In this document: piece after piece, positions 9,678 to 39,588 of the stretch
How the letters are laid out: each line of letters begins with the position of its first letter
Numbering within the stretch: position 1 is the first letter of the stretch
NCBI GenBank assembly: GCA_947476645.1
Contig: CANJRM010000009.1
Span: forward strand, 1 to 64,000
Direction of reading: 5' to 3'
Origin: Bacteroidota bacterium
GTDB taxonomy: Bacteria > Bacteroidota > Bacteroidia > Chitinophagales > LD1
DNA: 64,000 nt
Notes under the pieces: model-generated
What the model saw: the letters and a program-made list of their open reading frames with translations, nothing else
The model's database searches: none
What the model was told of the DNA's origin: nothing
Position numbers and translations under genes: made by a program

Positions 9678-10727
9678 GTGAGCCAAAACGAACAGAAAAT
9701 AAATTTATGGAAAATCCTGCTTCCGGTTTCTATAGGTGTTAGTGTTTCGATTTATCTCATTGTCACCAACCTTAATTTTGAAGCGCTTCATTCCATTCAT
9801 GTTTCACAAAAGCTAATCATTGGTTTGGTGTTGGCAGCACTTACGGTAGTTAGCCGCGATGCAGCGTTTATGTATAAAATACGTTTGAGCAGCGGCAATT
9901 TTTTAAGCTGGCGCAAAACTTTTCAAACCATTACCATGTGGGAGTTTGGCACTTGCATTACACCCAAAATAAGTGTAACGCCTTTTGTGCTTTATCTGTT
10001 TTTTAAAAGCGGAATGAGTTCGGGCAAAAGTGTGGCGGTGTTAATGCTCAATGGTTTTTTTGACAACCTCGCTTTTGTAGTAGTGTTTGGCATACTTTAT
10101 CTTCTTCTTGGAAATCAAATTCTCACGCTCTCTCCGCATTGTGCCGATTTAGACGGGCACGTAATTATGCAGGGCATCAGAAGTTTTGCGGACTATGCCT
10201 GGATTGGTTACCTGCTTATTCTTTCGGCTTGTATTTTTCTAGGCACAGCGCTTTTCATACTTCCTCATGCAACAAAAAAACTGTTTCATCAATTAGCTGA
10301 AATGAAATTTCTTGCACGGTTTAAAAACAAAATCATTTTTATAGGCGATGAAATTGAACTCACCGCCAAGGAGTTTAAAAACAAACCGTTTTCATTTTGG
10401 GTAAAGATGTCAATAGCCACGCTTATTAACTGGGTGAGCCGCTATCTTTTAGCCGTGTCATTGTTCTATGCTTTTGCTGTGACCGATTTTAGTTTTCTCA
10501 CTGCGCTTTCGCGCCAGTATGTGCTTTGGATTTTCACGAGCATTCCTTCCACACCGGGAGCCAGCGGAGTGGCGGAGCTTTCTTTCATTGCGCTCAATTG
10601 TGAGTTTATGCCCGTGGGTTTATCTGCCGCTATTGCTTTGGTGTGGCGGTTGTATTCTTACTACCTCTATTTAATTCTTGGAATGATTGTATTGCCGCGC
10701 TGGGCAAAACAGATTTCGGCAAAATAA
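9678..10727 (+). CDS. LPG synthase TM-region / AglD-like flippase-domain membrane protein
   Basis: A 349-residue integral membrane protein with about eight hydrophobic segments. It matches the UPF0104 / lysylphosphatidylglycerol-synthase transmembrane family (YbhN, AglD): the C-terminal signature SIPSTPGASGVAELSF is distinctive. Members move or modify lipids or lipid-linked sugars, but no soluble aminoacyl-transferase domain is fused here, so it is not an MprF synthase. The start is GTG 9678; no ATG lies nearby in frame before the first helix. It ends 3 bp before the convergent pseudouridine synthase gene. Specific function unknown. Confidence 0.78.
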   Translation: MSQNEQKINLWKILLPVSIGVSVSIYLIVTNLNFEALHSIHVSQKLIIGLVLAALTVVSRDAAFMYKIRLSSGNFLSWRKTFQTITMWEFGTCITPKISVTPFVLYLFFKSGMSSGKSVAVLMLNGFFDNLAFVVVFGILYLLLGNQILTLSPHCADLDGHVIMQGIRSFADYAWIGYLLILSACIFLGTALFILPHATKKLFHQLAEMKFLARFKNKIIFIGDEIELTAKEFKNKPFSFWVKMSIATLINWVSRYLLAVSLFYAFAVTDFSFLTALSRQYVLWIFTSIPSTPGASGVAELSFIALNCEFMPVGLSAAIALVWRLYSYYLYLILGMIVLPRWAKQISAK

Positions 10728-10730
10728 TTT

Positions 10731-11414
10731 CTACATCGCAAATGCCTTCCACACCACCTCATCAGGAACAGGCGCGGTGATTTCTATTTTTTCTTTTTTA
10801 ACCGGATGGATGAACTCTACTTTACGCGCATGCAAATGAATAAAGCCATCGCCATTGCCTCTGCGCGCTCCGTATTTTACATCGCCTTTAATAGGGCATT
10901 CCATTTTTGAAAGCTGTAAACGAATTTGATGATGCCTGCCCGTGAGCGGATTGATTTCGAGCAAATGATAGTTGTCAATACTCTTCAGCCATTTGTAATC
11001 CAATTCGCATTTTAGAGTTCCTTTCACTTCGGTATCATAAGCGTGCGACATGTTCTTCTTTTCGTTCTTCTTCAGCCAATGAACTAAATGTCCTTCCATC
11101 TTTTCGGGGCGGTTACCTACTACTGCCCAATACGTTTTCTTCACTTCCTTGCTCTTGAACATTTCATTTAAGCGAACCAACGCTTTACTCGTGCGCGCAA
11201 ATAAAACCACACCGCTCACGGGTCTGTCAATGCGATGACACACCCCCAGAAAAACTTCGCCTGGCTTTTCAAATTTGTGTGCGATGTATTCTTTCAAAAT
11301 TTGTTCGAGCGCAGCATCACCTTTTTTATCGGGCTGCACTAAAACACCAGCAGGTTTGTTCACCGCTATAATGTGGTTGTCTTCATACAAAATTTCGAGG
11401 TCGGTATATTCCAT
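10731..11414 (-). CDS. RluA-family pseudouridine synthase
   Basis: A 227-residue single-domain RluA-type pseudouridine synthase, which isomerises uridine in rRNA or tRNA. The catalytic aspartate is D63 in HRIDRPVSG; the PLTGRHHQIRLQLS block and the GARRGNGDGFIHLHA block follow as usual. It lacks the N-terminal S4 domain of RluC and RluD, so it belongs to the short group and its target base cannot be assigned. Start ATG 11412-11414 lies 4 bp below a good promoter box, so the mRNA may be leaderless or nearly so. Confidence 0.88.
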   Translation of the reverse strand: MEYTDLEILYEDNHIIAVNKPAGVLVQPDKKGDAALEQILKEYIAHKFEKPGEVFLGVCHRIDRPVSGVVLFARTSKALVRLNEMFKSKEVKKTYWAVVGNRPEKMEGHLVHWLKKNEKKNMSHAYDTEVKGTLKCELDYKWLKSIDNYHLLEINPLTGRHHQIRLQLSKMECPIKGDVKYGARRGNGDGFIHLHARKVEFIHPVKKEKIEITAPVPDEVVWKAFAM

Positions 11415-17332: not shown

Positions 17333-17393
17333 GGAGCTTTAATCCTATAAGTGAGCTTCTCCTGTCTGCTTATCTTAAATAGTCTGTATCCTA

Positions 17394-17624
17394 TAAGCAT
17401 AACTAACTATTATGTAATCCAAAGTAATTATTATATAATCAGAAGTAATTATTATCTATTCAAAACTAAGTATTAACTAAGCATTTACAATAATTAATTT
17501 ATAACAAGTGTATATTAAGTAATCAAAACAATATATTATTGCTTCTAAAGTTTGTATTATTTCTTCTAAAGTAATTATTTTTTAAGCATCTATTTCTATT
17601 ATGCAACCACAAATAGACATTTGC
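17394..17624. repeat. 21-bp periodic array A (AT-rich, TAAT...ATTA units)
   Basis: Eleven consecutive units begin at 17394, 17415, 17436 and so on to 17604, always 21 bp apart. ATTA stands at unit positions 16-19 in nine of eleven and ATTT in the other two; TAAT or TAAG opens many units, so a unit is roughly TAAT-N11-ATTA, a dyad. The units at 17415 and 17436 are nearly identical; outer ones are more diverged. The array starts 62 bp after the stop of the small lipoprotein gene. It fills most of a 436-bp gap without coding signal. Confidence 0.82.
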
Positions 17625-31235: not shown

Positions 31236-32129
31236 ATGAGCAGTCAAACTACCATCATAGTTGCGGGCTATCCGAAATCGGGCAACACCTGGTTGGCGAA
31301 AATGCTCTGTCAGATTTTTACAGCAAAGATGGTGGATGATGATGAAGACCATGCCGAAGTAAACGCGCGAATGCTTAATACAAATTTGAGTAACACGCGA
31401 GTTATCAAAAGCCATTTGCTCCCCGAAGATTTATTCAAAAAATATCCGTCTGAAGATTTCAAAGTGTTTTATGTCTATCGCGATGTTCGCGATGTTTCCA
31501 TTTCTGCATTCTTCTATTTCGTTCGACCCGGAGATAAATATTTAAGCAACGTAGATGGTTATAATGAGTCAGTCGTTCATCTGAGAAATCCTGACGATTA
31601 CACAGCAGGAAAGCAGAAAATCAAAAACTACATTCTTGAATTTGTAGCACACGGAATCAAAAGCATTCCGCATCTGCTTACGTGGGATAAGCATATTGAC
31701 CATTGGCAAAAATGGGCTTCAAATAGAAATGATATTGTGTTCGTGAGTTATGAGGATTTAAAAAGGCAAACTGCTTTCATTCTCGAAAAATCAATTGCTG
31801 GTTTTAATTTGAAAGAGATTCAAACAATTTCTGTAGCCGATGCAGTAGAAGCAGAAAATTTTGAAAAGCTGAAGACTAAATTCCAAAGCGAACAAAATAC
31901 CAAGCAGTTTCAGTTTCTCAGAAAAGGAACAAGTGGCGATTGGAAAAATTATTACACCAAGCAAATTGGGGAAGCCGTAAATAACTCGGCAGGAGAAAAA
32001 TTGCAACAACTCGGCTATGAAACAGACCGTAATTGGGTCAGTCAACTTCCTAACGAGAAAATGAAACCTGAAACTGTTTCTGAAATTGCGCTTTACTTAA
32101 AATTGAAACTTCGACAGTTTATAAAATGA
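31236..32129 (+). CDS. PAPS-dependent sulfotransferase, first of two
   Basis: A 297-residue cytosolic-type sulfotransferase that would move sulfate from PAPS to a hydroxyl of the glycan or lipid. The 5'-phosphosulfate-binding loop is YPKSGNTWLAKML near the N-terminus, and the 3'-phosphate motif is VYRDVRDVSISAFFY. A later motif, RKGTSGDWKNYY, is the R-K-G-x-x-G-D-W-K-x-x-F signature of the family. Its last bases overlap the fucosyltransferase ATG by 4 bp, showing tight coupling. PAPS synthesis genes (cysN/cysD/cysC) are not in the window. Confidence 0.88.
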   Translation: MSSQTTIIVAGYPKSGNTWLAKMLCQIFTAKMVDDDEDHAEVNARMLNTNLSNTRVIKSHLLPEDLFKKYPSEDFKVFYVYRDVRDVSISAFFYFVRPGDKYLSNVDGYNESVVHLRNPDDYTAGKQKIKNYILEFVAHGIKSIPHLLTWDKHIDHWQKWASNRNDIVFVSYEDLKRQTAFILEKSIAGFNLKEIQTISVADAVEAENFEKLKTKFQSEQNTKQFQFLRKGTSGDWKNYYTKQIGEAVNNSAGEKLQQLGYETDRNWVSQLPNEKMKPETVSEIALYLKLKLRQFIK

Positions 32130-35622: not shown

Positions 35623-36660
35623 ATGAAGAAACTCGGATTGAAAATCTTTTTGTTGGTAGCAATCGTTGCGGTTGGCAACGGGTTGCTCTTTCATCAGTTT
35701 CATTTGCCGTTTGGTTGGGGTAACGATAATGTGTATGCCAAAGAAGTTTATTGGGAGAAACACAAAGACGATTACAACACTATTTTCATTGGCACCAGCA
35801 GAGTTTATCGTCAGATGGATGCCACGCTTTTTGATTCGCTGACGAATCACGAAACTAAATCGTTCAACTTTGGTATTGCGGGTGCGGCTGCTACGGAAAT
35901 GTATTACTACCTGAATAAACTGTTGGCAGAGGACAAAGGGAAATTGAAGTTTGTGGTACTTGAGCTGTGTGATGTAGATTTAATAGCCAAAGAAAATCTG
36001 CACACACGCGACCAGAAATATTGGTACAACTTTTCTGCGTGGAGGTTTTCGGTTCGCGCTATTCTGCAATCGAATTATTCTTTCGAAGAAAAAGCAACCG
36101 GCATTCTTTACAACAGTATTTCGTTTGGCGAAAGCATTTTGAAATTCGATTTGCTGAAAGATGTTTGGAAGTTCCGCCACTCTAAACCAAATGAATTATT
36201 TCTTGGAGATAATAAAGACGGCTTTGTGCCGATGGATGATGTAAAGGTGAATAAGGATTTCGTATTGGGGCAACGGAAGGAGTTTTTGAGCGATACCAGT
36301 ATCAATGCCAATCGCAGAGAGGTGAGCATTGAAACGTTTAAGGCGAATGCACAACAGAAATTTATTTCGGCTCATTACAACAAACTCAATGGCATTGTTT
36401 CGAAATTGCAGGCAAAGGGCATTCAGGTTTTTGTGGTGCTGGCACCGCGCATGAAGGAGATGCAATACAAAAACACGGTGCCTGTTTTTGCGAAGCTCGA
36501 CAGCCGCATAAAAATCAATTTAGCCGATGCTTCGCTGCACCCTGAGTTTTATGAATGGAATCTGGATTTTGATGCGGGGCACGTGAACAAAGAGGGCTCG
36601 CGGATTTTGACACGGAAATTGGCAGAAGCATTCTTACATTTAAAGACCGATAAGCCATAG
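35623..36660 (+). CDS. SGNH-like acyltransferase partner of the MBOAT protein
   Basis: A 345-residue protein with one N-terminal membrane helix (about 5-25) and a periplasmic SGNH/GDSL-like domain. S59 in FIGTSRVYRQM suits the nucleophile and D317-A-G-H320 the Asp-x-x-His of the triad; FGIAGAAATEM gives the oxyanion-hole region. It lies 3 bp after the MBOAT gene. I infer that it transfers acetyl or another acyl group to the polysaccharide, as AlgJ/AlgX or PatB do. It is not closely similar to any named member that I recognise. Confidence 0.75.
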   Translation: MKKLGLKIFLLVAIVAVGNGLLFHQFHLPFGWGNDNVYAKEVYWEKHKDDYNTIFIGTSRVYRQMDATLFDSLTNHETKSFNFGIAGAAATEMYYYLNKLLAEDKGKLKFVVLELCDVDLIAKENLHTRDQKYWYNFSAWRFSVRAILQSNYSFEEKATGILYNSISFGESILKFDLLKDVWKFRHSKPNELFLGDNKDGFVPMDDVKVNKDFVLGQRKEFLSDTSINANRREVSIETFKANAQQKFISAHYNKLNGIVSKLQAKGIQVFVVLAPRMKEMQYKNTVPVFAKLDSRIKINLADASLHPEFYEWNLDFDAGHVNKEGSRILTRKLAEAFLHLKTDKP

Positions 36661-36661
36661 C

Positions 36662-37405
36662 ATGTATCACTACAAAAACATTCTGATTATCTCCGATAAT
36701 TTTTTTCTCATCAACGGGTTTTGTAAACTGGTGAAAAAGTTTGAGGGCATTGCGGTTGATTACCGTTGCTCTGCTGTGAACACGGCTTTGCTCAATAATA
36801 CTTCGCTGCCGGTAAAGATTAGTGCTATCCAATTGAAAGAAGAATGGCAGGAGGTAATTAAAAACTACGACCTTGTTATTTCGCTGCACTGCAAACAATT
36901 GTTTCCTGGTGAAATGGTGAAGGTAGTGAAGTGCATTAACGTTCACCCCGGGTATAATCCTTATAACCGCGGGTGGTTTCCACAGGTGTTTTCTATTTTG
37001 AACGGGCTGCCGTTTGGGGCTACGATTCATGAAATAGATGAGCAGCTTGACCACGGGGCGATTATAGCGCAGAAGAAAGTAAGCGGAGAGGCATGGGAAA
37101 CTTCGATTGACGTTTACAATAAAATTGTGCAGGCAGAAATTGAATTGCTCGAAGAGTTTTTGCCTGCCATCCTCAACAATAATTACCAAACAATTTTGCC
37201 CACAGAAGAAGGCAATGTGAATTTGAAGAAGGACTTTAATGCTTTGTGTGAGTTGGATTTAAAAGAAGAGCTGACGATGGGCGAAGCTATTGACCGCCTG
37301 CGCGCGCTTACACATGGTGAATACAAAAATGCCTGGTTCAGGCATCCTGAAACGGGAGAGAAGATTTATGTGAGTATTAATCTTGAACGCGGGAAGGAGC
37401 AATAA
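36662..37405 (+). CDS. N10-formyltetrahydrofolate-dependent sugar N-formyltransferase
   Basis: A 247-residue enzyme of the formyltransferase fold. The catalytic triad Asn-His-Asp is N93 and H95 in CINVHPGYNP and D130 in EQLDHG, as in the dTDP-amino-sugar formyltransferases (VioF, QdtF, WlaRD type) rather than in tRNA formyltransferase. FGATIHEIDEQLDHGAII is the typical block. It should formylate an amino sugar, most simply the product of the DegT aminotransferase at 28007. It starts 1 bp after the SGNH stop (TAGCATG). It is the last gene before array B. Confidence 0.88.
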   Translation: MYHYKNILIISDNFFLINGFCKLVKKFEGIAVDYRCSAVNTALLNNTSLPVKISAIQLKEEWQEVIKNYDLVISLHCKQLFPGEMVKVVKCINVHPGYNPYNRGWFPQVFSILNGLPFGATIHEIDEQLDHGAIIAQKKVSGEAWETSIDVYNKIVQAEIELLEEFLPAILNNNYQTILPTEEGNVNLKKDFNALCELDLKEELTMGEAIDRLRALTHGEYKNAWFRHPETGEKIYVSINLERGKEQ

Positions 37406-37545
37406 ATTTGCAACAGGGTCTCGGTTGGCTATAAAGTTGGGTGTCTAATTCGTTCTTTTTCCGGAATAGACTCCTTTTTGTAGTTTTTTTCTGTCTTTTA
37501 TGGTTTACGGGCAGTTTTGGCTCTTTTAGGCTCGTTATGCAGAGA

Positions 37546-37755
37546 TTTTCACACCCGTGAAAAATGTTTCCAGTCCTTCGGAAAACATTTTCGCACCCAT
37601 GAAAAACATTTTTAGTCGTTCGTGAAACATTTTCGCACCAGTGAAAAACATTTTCAGTCGTGCAAAAAACATTTTTACACCCGTGAAAAACATTTCCAGT
37701 CGTTCGGAAACTTTTTACGCACCCGTGAAAAAGTTTTTCATACCGCCTTACTGCT
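37546..37755. repeat. 21-bp periodic array B (TTTTC...GAAAA units, 42-bp superperiod)
   Basis: Ten units begin at 37546, 37567, 37588 and so on to 37735, exactly 21 bp apart. They alternate: odd units read TTTTC, then CACCCGTG, then AAAAACA; even units read TTTyCAGTCGTTC, then GGAAA. Each unit is an imperfect dyad TTTTC...GAAAA, so five 42-bp pairs result; only the last unit is degenerate. The array sits in a 425-bp gap after the formyltransferase gene and 75 bp before the next glycosyltransferase. Frames through it are open by composition only. No other feature was seen in the gap. Confidence 0.92.
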
Positions 37756-37830
37756 TCTAAAGCAATATTTGTCCGTCACCGGCCTTCAAAACTCATTTGA
37801 ACAACTCCCTTACTCTTCTACATTTGTCCC

Positions 37831-38769
37831 ATGCCCAAACTGAGTGTTTGTTTTATTACTTATAACCATGCAAACTTTGTTCGCCAGGCGCTCGACAGCG
37901 TGCTGATGCAGCAGTGCAGTTATGATATGGAGATTGTGGTGAGCGATGATTGCAGCACCGATGGCACGGCAGAAATTGTAAAAGAGTATGCCGCAAAACA
38001 TTCTGATAAAATACGCCTGAATGTGCTGGAGAAGAATGTGGGCATGACGCTGAACTGGGTAAGCAGCATGAACGCCTGCACAGGAGAATATATTGCGCTG
38101 CTCGAAGGCGATGATTACTGGACAGACGAAAACAAACTGCAAAGGCAGGTTGAGTTTTTGGATAAACACCCTGAGCTGTCGTTTGCGGCACATGATGTGG
38201 CGCCTGTTTTTGAACCCGGCATGGCGCAAAAAGACGGGTTGCTGCATTTGGCAGAAAGCGGAACGTTTACGCTGCACGATTATTTAGGGCGCGCGGGTTT
38301 TGTGCAAACGGGCACGGTGATGCTGCGCAGAAGTATGATGCCGCCTTTTCCGGAATGGACCGATGCGCGTGTAAAGTGTATAGACTTTTTGGTGTATCTG
38401 CTGCTGGCTTCGCGCGCCCCGTTTTATTATGAAGCCGTGGTGCGCAGCGTGTATCGCTTGCACACAGGCGGTATTTCGCATGTGAACTGGCGCACTAAGC
38501 AAAATGCGTTTGAGTTTGATATGGTGTATGTGCTCAACCAATTCAACGAACACACGCGCGGAAAATTTAAACGCGAAACCAGTGACCGGCTCGAAGTGCT
38601 TTACCTGCGATTGCTCAAAGGCAATGCGCCCGATACCGAAGCGTATCAGCGCGCACTTCGCGGAATAGTTTTTCTTCGCCCCGCAAAACATATTGATTTG
38701 GTGAAAGGTTACCTCATCAACCAATTTGTTCCCGCAAAAATTTACAACTTGTACCGAAAATTATTCTGA
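37831..38769 (+). CDS. GT2 family glycosyltransferase
   Basis: A 312-residue GT-A fold glycosyltransferase. SVCFITYNHANFVRQALDSVL (about 4-24) begins the nucleotide-binding half; SDDCSTDGT and the DxD-like motif ALLEGDDYWTDENKL bind the sugar nucleotide and metal. A C-terminal helical part completes it. It begins a second co-directional run after array B and precedes the methyltransferase by 3 bp. Donor and acceptor are undetermined. Confidence 0.9.
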   Translation: MPKLSVCFITYNHANFVRQALDSVLMQQCSYDMEIVVSDDCSTDGTAEIVKEYAAKHSDKIRLNVLEKNVGMTLNWVSSMNACTGEYIALLEGDDYWTDENKLQRQVEFLDKHPELSFAAHDVAPVFEPGMAQKDGLLHLAESGTFTLHDYLGRAGFVQTGTVMLRRSMMPPFPEWTDARVKCIDFLVYLLLASRAPFYYEAVVRSVYRLHTGGISHVNWRTKQNAFEFDMVYVLNQFNEHTRGKFKRETSDRLEVLYLRLLKGNAPDTEAYQRALRGIVFLRPAKHIDLVKGYLINQFVPAKIYNLYRKLF

Positions 38770-38772
38770 CCC

Positions 38773-39588
38773 ATGGAGCCGCAAAAATATATTCATCAGG
38801 AAGCCGTGCACAATACCGATGCACCGCAGGAGATTGTGCCAGCCGTGTATCGTCTCATTCAGCCGAAGAGTGTGGTGGATGTGGGCTGCGGCATAGGCAC
38901 TTTTTTGTATTGCTTCAAGCAGCAGGGTGTAAAAAAAGTGTTGGGTATTGATGGCGTGTGGGCTGATAGAAATTTGATGAAGAAGTATTTGGCAGATGAT
39001 GAATTCAAAGAAGCCGATTTAGAAAAGCCGTTTAATCTTTCGGAGAAATTTGATTTGGCTGTTTGCCTTGAAGTAGCCGAGCACTTAACCGAAGCAAGTG
39101 CCGATGCGTTTATAAAAAATCTTGCATCGCTCAGCGATGTGATTTTGTTTTCTGCGGCTTTGCCTAATCAGGGCGGGCAAAACCATTTGAATGAACAAAC
39201 ACCTGCTTACTGGGAAAAGAAATTCAATGCACAGGGTTTTGAATTTCACGATTTGCTGCGCGAACCGTTTTGGAACAACAACAAAATATTTTGGTGGTAC
39301 CGGCAGAATATTTTTCTGGTAACGCGTAAGGGATATGCTATTAATAATGCGGCTTTGCCCGCTGCGGCTTCAAATACTGCACGCACTGTTATTCATCCCG
39401 AGCTGTTCAACTACACCGCACAAATAGCCAACCTTTCAATCAATAAACTTTTGCTTCTTGAAAATGGGGGATACAGCATAAAGGTTTATGCGCAGTTGCT
39501 TCTTCGTGCGGTCAAACGCAAACTCGGTTTGCTTGGAAAATCGTTGCCAATGCTAATCTTCAATTCGAAATATCCGATGCAAAAATGA
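38773..39588 (+). CDS. Class I SAM-dependent methyltransferase, paralog 1
   Basis: A 271-residue methyltransferase. VVDVGCGIGTFL (about 36-47) is the SAM-binding motif I, and VLGIDGVW is motif II. The region around 85-110 (FDLAVCLEVAEHL) is motif post-II. It shares the N-terminal block HNTDxPxEIxP and the EVAEHL motif with the gene at 52158, so the two are paralogs. It probably methylates a sugar hydroxyl or glycan end. It overlaps the next GT2 gene by 4 bp (ATGA). Confidence 0.88.
   Translation: MEPQKYIHQEAVHNTDAPQEIVPAVYRLIQPKSVVDVGCGIGTFLYCFKQQGVKKVLGIDGVWADRNLMKKYLADDEFKEADLEKPFNLSEKFDLAVCLEVAEHLTEASADAFIKNLASLSDVILFSAALPNQGGQNHLNEQTPAYWEKKFNAQGFEFHDLLREPFWNNNKIFWWYRQNIFLVTRKGYAINNAALPAAASNTARTVIHPELFNYTAQIANLSINKLLLLENGGYSIKVYAQLLLRAVKRKLGLLGKSLPMLIFNSKYPMQK

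Follow-up and report, generated by a model that had tools for sequence, protein, structure and literature searches.

Sequence is the usual feature by which tandem repeats are recognised in bacteria. The sopC centromere of plasmid F is built of 43-bp repeats with inverted repeats, phased sites that are bound by oligomeric DNA proteins, and the primary sigma promoter of Bacteroidota has the form TTTG / TAnnTTTG. Short palindromic units alternate in intergenic DNA in the BIME/REP elements (PMC2817692). The closest published relative of the arrays described here is BrickBuilt of Porphyromonas gingivalis, an intergenic tandem minisatellite/MITE with a 23-nt unit and promoter activity, in which one 23-nt sequence occupies 19 sites with a leader and a tail in common (PMC4596501).

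The DNA analysed here is a window of 64,000 nt. Its genome is referred to as G000, other G numbers denote comparison genomes and L numbers the sampled stretches; the genomes are draft assemblies and the gene calls simple ORF calls. The promoter type and a match to a Chitinophagaceae MAG suggest that G000 belongs to the Bacteroidota, probably to the Chitinophagales. Like BrickBuilt, the array under study is intergenic. Its upstream neighbour is a dTDP-4-amino-4,6-dideoxyglucose formyltransferase gene (36662-37405, + strand; NF005755 over cut-off) and its downstream neighbour a family 2 glycosyltransferase (GT2) gene (37831-38769, + strand; PF00535). The initial annotation had described alternating 21-bp dyads with a 42-bp superperiod between these genes, and TRF, lag identities and a dyad permutation test all confirmed them. 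The proposed span of 37546-37755 does hold the array, but the left edge lies slightly further out. By direct reading, TRF and HMM the array comprises nine units and a partial one in A/B alternation, with no strand assigned; the HMM places its limits at 37543-37744, and the 21-bp rows begin at 37543. The TRF call covers 37545-37732 (period 42, 4.5 copies, 80% matches, 1% indels, score 241). A match to the core pattern gave the first odd unit, TTTTCACACCCGTGAAAA (37546-37563, + strand), and the remaining odd units begin at 37588, 37630, 37672 and 37714, with the consensus TTTTCGCACCCGTGAAAA. The first even unit, TTTCCAGTCCTTCGGAAA (37567-37584, + strand), was read from the 21-bp rows; the others begin at 37609, 37651 and 37693, the even consensus is TTTCCAGTCGTTCGGAAA, and the right arm is degraded in two of the four even units. 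Self-identity at lags of 21, 42, 63 and 84 was 0.56, 0.79, 0.56 and 0.79, and therefore the alternation over four pairs and the fifth odd unit are real. Dyad symmetry exceeded that of column-permuted arrays both for 21 bp (p=0.001) and for 42 bp (p=0.002). One dyad in a 42-bp period always implies another at a distance of 21 bp, so that "alternating dyads" is equivalent to "dyad-symmetric 42-bp unit".

The window array is real and is found at a single locus of its genome. With up to three mismatches the odd core matched five times in the window, where 0.22 matches were expected. Genome-wide only these five copies were close, and the search beyond the array gave nothing above a reversed-pattern control. 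No sequence similar to the array was found in the plasmid DNA searched, and the same spaced pattern was absent from the viral contigs searched; an exact-pattern scan of genome contigs returned a single Chitinophagaceae MAG. The array is crossed by no long reading frame. A CRISPR array was rejected, as both alternating units themselves repeat and no unique spacers lie between them.

The original interpretation of the array is partly supported, and the genome-wide class to which it belongs was not visible from the window alone. In a TRF survey of 464 kb of G000, period 21 and its multiples dominate. Autocorrelation of intergenic DNA peaked at 42, 21 and 63 bp both in G000 (z 9.5, 7.5 and 6.9) and in G009 (z 9.6, 8.8 and 7.2), with no peak at 20 or 22 bp in either genome. 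Ten arrays were listed with their context in G000 and seven in G009, densities that rest on genome samples, the G009 stretches having been picked as orthologues of G000 flanks. These arrays were found between co-directional, convergent and divergent genes alike. About two thirds of them have a 42-bp superperiod, which fits the earlier proposal of duplication in 42-bp steps or paired sites, and dyad symmetry is significant in about half of the arrays. The window itself holds a second array of the class, of unrelated AT-rich sequence (17385-17541, no strand assigned; TRF), which also takes in 17534-17583. Four arrays were found in G006, of the same genus. Other families of the order have similar ones as well (G040, G058, G102 and the Chitinophagaceae MAG named above); these were found with the 21-bp pattern and are therefore no test of the period. 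Intergenic 21-bp arrays were absent from 171 kb of G015 and 131 kb of G014, and no intergenic arrays were seen in 100 kb each of G008, G025 and G049, 80 kb of G031 and 200 kb of G018. Empty sites could be located in congeners for L087 (in G014) and L093 (in G014 and G015). At L093 (13720-14440, G000) an extra intergenic stretch of about 590 bp, which G015 and G014 lack, contains a 21-bp array, further 21-bp-like units and the perfect hairpins TTCCAAGTC/GACTTGGAA and GCAGGGTC/GACCCTGC. In the open-access literature, the sole text searched, no account of a class with a locked period and free sequence came to light.

Other tandem repeats were observed in these genomes. A 41-bp tandem family, whose units (GACATTCGTC...TCTATGGCTTCCATAGA) are clearly homologous, is present at L081 18722-19059 in G000 and L176 15987-16221 in G009. 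It is a sequence-conserved dispersed minisatellite common to both genomes, and therefore not every intergenic array has period 21. Short tandem repeats of 7 bp (e.g. GATTGAA, CTTCCGA) are common across the genus; in the other sampled genera they are scarce. An origin of the arrays from such 7-bp microsatellites is unsupported, since these are also found in array-free species and a 7-bp substructure is missing from most arrays.

Within the class, it is the spacing and not the sequence that seems to be kept. Units of different G000 and G009 loci resemble one another no more than expected by chance (119 pairs, KS p=0.78); common descent of the units within these two genomes was rejected, as similarity is at chance except for one duplicated family, L082/L084. 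Register analysis revealed one jump in 16 arrays (3,912 bp, about 186 units), and the HMM gave 0-2 register jumps in G000 and G009 together, near array edges. The same arrays have accumulated at least 654 substitutions, or 804 when G006 is included. Alignable intergenic DNA of the genus shows 65 indels to 657 substitutions (G015) and 34 to 270 (G014), that is 0.10-0.13 indels per substitution, vs. 0.014 in genic DNA. At the intergenic ratio, about 65 indels would be expected beside the 654 substitutions, vs. about 0-2 seen. Counting against strict spacing, the HMM detected three 1-bp shifts in one G006 array, and some TRF rows carry 2-7% indels. Moreover, periodicity-based detection favours indel-poor arrays. 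When arrays with 15% substitutions and indels at the ordinary rate were simulated, TRF recovered 87% of them, and no more than 15% of the recovered ones would look indel-free; as TRF power drops at higher divergence, the indel depletion is strong, yet not fully free of detection bias.

The reading that we favour, at slightly under an even chance, is that the window array belongs to a class of non-coding intergenic minisatellites that conserve a 21.0-bp spacing (two helical turns) and not sequence, and that it serves as a phased DNA scaffold with constrained spacing. Its main rival is a period-locked selfish or neutral minisatellite, whose arrays would spread to new intergenic sites and drift, with slippage homogenising the units and the 21-bp period inherited from a common ancestor. 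We consider this a serious, if somewhat doubtful, possibility. It agrees with the dispersed same-sequence pairs (L082/L084 in G000, L045/L067 in G006), with presence that differs among sister species and the empty sites, with arrays adjoining genes in all orientations and with the lack of excess curvature. A GAAAnnCATTT skeleton is all that the window array has in common with its G009 counterpart, and therefore repeat sequences can diverge that far. However, drift should give indels at about one tenth of substitutions and almost none are seen, and between unrelated arrays the residual similarity does not exceed chance. The G006 pair, L067 17905-18641 and L045 4852-5284, is one and the same compound array, with GC-rich units followed by AAAAACATT units, which is evidence for dispersal.

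The array lies within a 425-bp intergenic segment (37406-37830, no strand assigned) which, as comparison of the junction across congeners showed, is missing in most of them: the formyltransferase-GT2 spacing is about 5-20 bp in G015, G014, G017, G013, G011, G010 and G001, vs. 425 bp in G000. The non-repetitive left flank of the array (37406-37542, no strand assigned) matches nothing else in the genus over its full length. The array had been proposed as a possible recombination junction, i.e. a gene-cassette boundary of the polysaccharide locus. Genes inside this locus do vary between species (31236-32129, 35623-36660 and 38773-39588), but none of them abuts the array. Three sister species, G015, G014 and G009, have collinear gene order to its left and to its right, and therefore gene content is unchanged at the array itself. 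Recombination at this point is thus rejected by synteny for the species compared, and we regard it as hardly credible. Two of the variable genes have features of their own. The gene at 35623-36660 is only 32-51% identical between sister species, against mostly 84-90% for its neighbours, and is fast-diverging or swapped. A methyltransferase gene at 38773-39588, between two GT2 genes, has no counterpart in the compared locus of G015, G014, G009 and G017.

In G015 and G014 the same flanking genes are found with the array absent, an outcome that the initial annotation had named as refuting its proposal, whereas the G009 junction has an array of the same spacing and different sequence. There, a transposase-like insertion (L141, about 9860-11340), located between the formyltransferase gene and the array, is followed by the 21-bp array and then by about 42 bp that are near-unchanged relative to G000 up to the GT2 start codon. 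The letters of the G009 array (GTTCGAAATTCATTTGTAAGTG and variants) are largely different, with the common skeleton only, and profile similarity of the two arrays gave p about 0.03. The near-unchanged stretch carries the promoter. In the window the consensus TTTG-N19-TACATTTG occupies 37796-37826 (+ strand), 4 bp before the GT2 start codon, with identical boxes in G009, and the exact TTTG-N19-TAnnTTTG lies between the array and GT2 in both genomes. Upstream regions of genes in these genomes carry this pattern at 10-20 times the density seen in coding DNA. The most economical reading is a single ancestral site that kept its promoter while the letters of its repeats turned over, the array having been lost in G015 and G014. 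Alternatively, the polysaccharide locus may have been transferred between species, since genome-wide G009 is more distant from G000 than G015 and G014 are. A regulatory boundary, which the initial annotation had also suggested, is plausible rather than proven at this junction, since the gap parts genes that are adjacent in most congeners and the exact Bacteroidota-type promoter is kept in G000 and G009. Promoter association as a general trait of the class was rejected: no exact matches were found near other G000 and G009 arrays, and it is confined among these to the G000 junction and its G009 counterpart.

Physical and coding properties of the arrays were also evaluated. In a simple wedge model, the intrinsic curvature of the window array was 25 degrees per 105 bp, below that of permuted arrays, and no excess was found over the array class; an intrinsically curved DNA element was rejected, as curvature is not above that of DNA of the same composition. 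No codon-phase (3-bp) conservation was detected in 25 arrays (p=0.98 for the window array). In this the arrays differ from coding repeats, and a protein-coding heptad repeat was rejected because the codon pattern is absent. The conservation of columns includes a weak 10.5-bp component (p=0.006 in the permutation test, 0.015-0.04 vs. block shuffles). Its weakness counts against a scaffold, as do its main origin in the G009 arrays and its absence from the window array. At the RNA level, a transcribed array could fold into successive hairpins and in this way attenuate, terminate or stabilise the transcript of the operon. The window array does sit between co-directional genes, and its sense strand folds better relative to shuffles (z -4.45) than its antisense strand (z -2.42), but repeats with dyads raise folding scores by construction. 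Given that the window array has no terminator-like site and no Rfam family, that other arrays of the class are flanked by divergent or convergent genes, and that about half of them lack dyads, such an RNA element appears improbable.

The lack of excess curvature and of a codon signal, the weak 10.5-bp component, the dyads and the superperiods lead us to prefer, with limited confidence, the phased scaffold over the selfish minisatellite. The scaffold would act through a putative symmetric, probably oligomeric, DNA-binding or architectural protein. The 21-bp spacing would be under selection because it sets the repeated contacts of this protein on one helix face, and units in alternating orientation would offer it two-fold axes that alternate as well. 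Between the formyltransferase and GT2 genes the array is probably an upstream scaffold or insulator before the GT2 promoter, which would start GT2 and later genes separately from the formyltransferase operon; an effect of the array on GT2 transcription, like protein binding to it, is inferred. Further observations count against the scaffold: the arrays are missing from the close congeners G015 and G014 and are therefore dispensable, about half of them have no dyad symmetry, and the conserved 41-bp family exists beside them. A bolder proposal, which we put forward only tentatively, is that helical spacing alone is selected: unrelated, fast-evolving sequences would be held at exactly 21 bp, often with 42-bp dyad alternation, as scaffolds for a putative symmetric architectural protein, kept in some species of the genus and lost in close relatives. 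A class recognised by period only, with letters free and indels nearly absent, would, if this holds, point to selection on helical geometry outside genes. The choice of 21 over 20 or 22 bp would then be a concrete handle for finding a nucleoid or regulatory protein, and similarity searches would miss such elements.

Among known systems, BrickBuilt shares with these arrays an intergenic, spacer-free tandem organisation in a Bacteroidota genome and a unit of about two helical turns. The window array differs in its 21-nt unit and superperiod of 42, vs. 23 nt. Unlike BrickBuilt, the arrays here have their own sequence at each locus and the period as shared feature, the window unit being at a single locus. 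The window array also lacks a shared leader and tail with terminal inverted repeats, as its left flank is unique and its right flank is shared only with the same junction in G009. The sequence before GT2 is an exact match to the Bacteroidota primary sigma promoter and is conserved in G009, but it adjoins an array at the formyltransferase/GT2 junction only. The alternating 21-bp palindromic units in intergenic DNA, with their dyads confirmed by the permutation test, look BIME-like (PMC2817692), and mobile palindromes of the REP/BIME type moved by a Y1 (RAYT) transposase could be envisaged. Yet the window unit is present at one locus, without genome-wide copies, and has a fixed 21-bp tandem spacing. 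Nor does the distribution of Y1 transposase genes (Y1_Tnp, RAYT subgroup not separated) track the arrays: they occur in all 18 of 18 congeners, arrays seen or not, with four in the array-free G014 and three in G015 vs. one in G000. Such an origin is very improbable. The arrays differ from sopC of F in lying at many chromosomal loci with unrelated sequences and with no partition gene implied; what they have in common with it is tandem dyads at about four-turn spacing.
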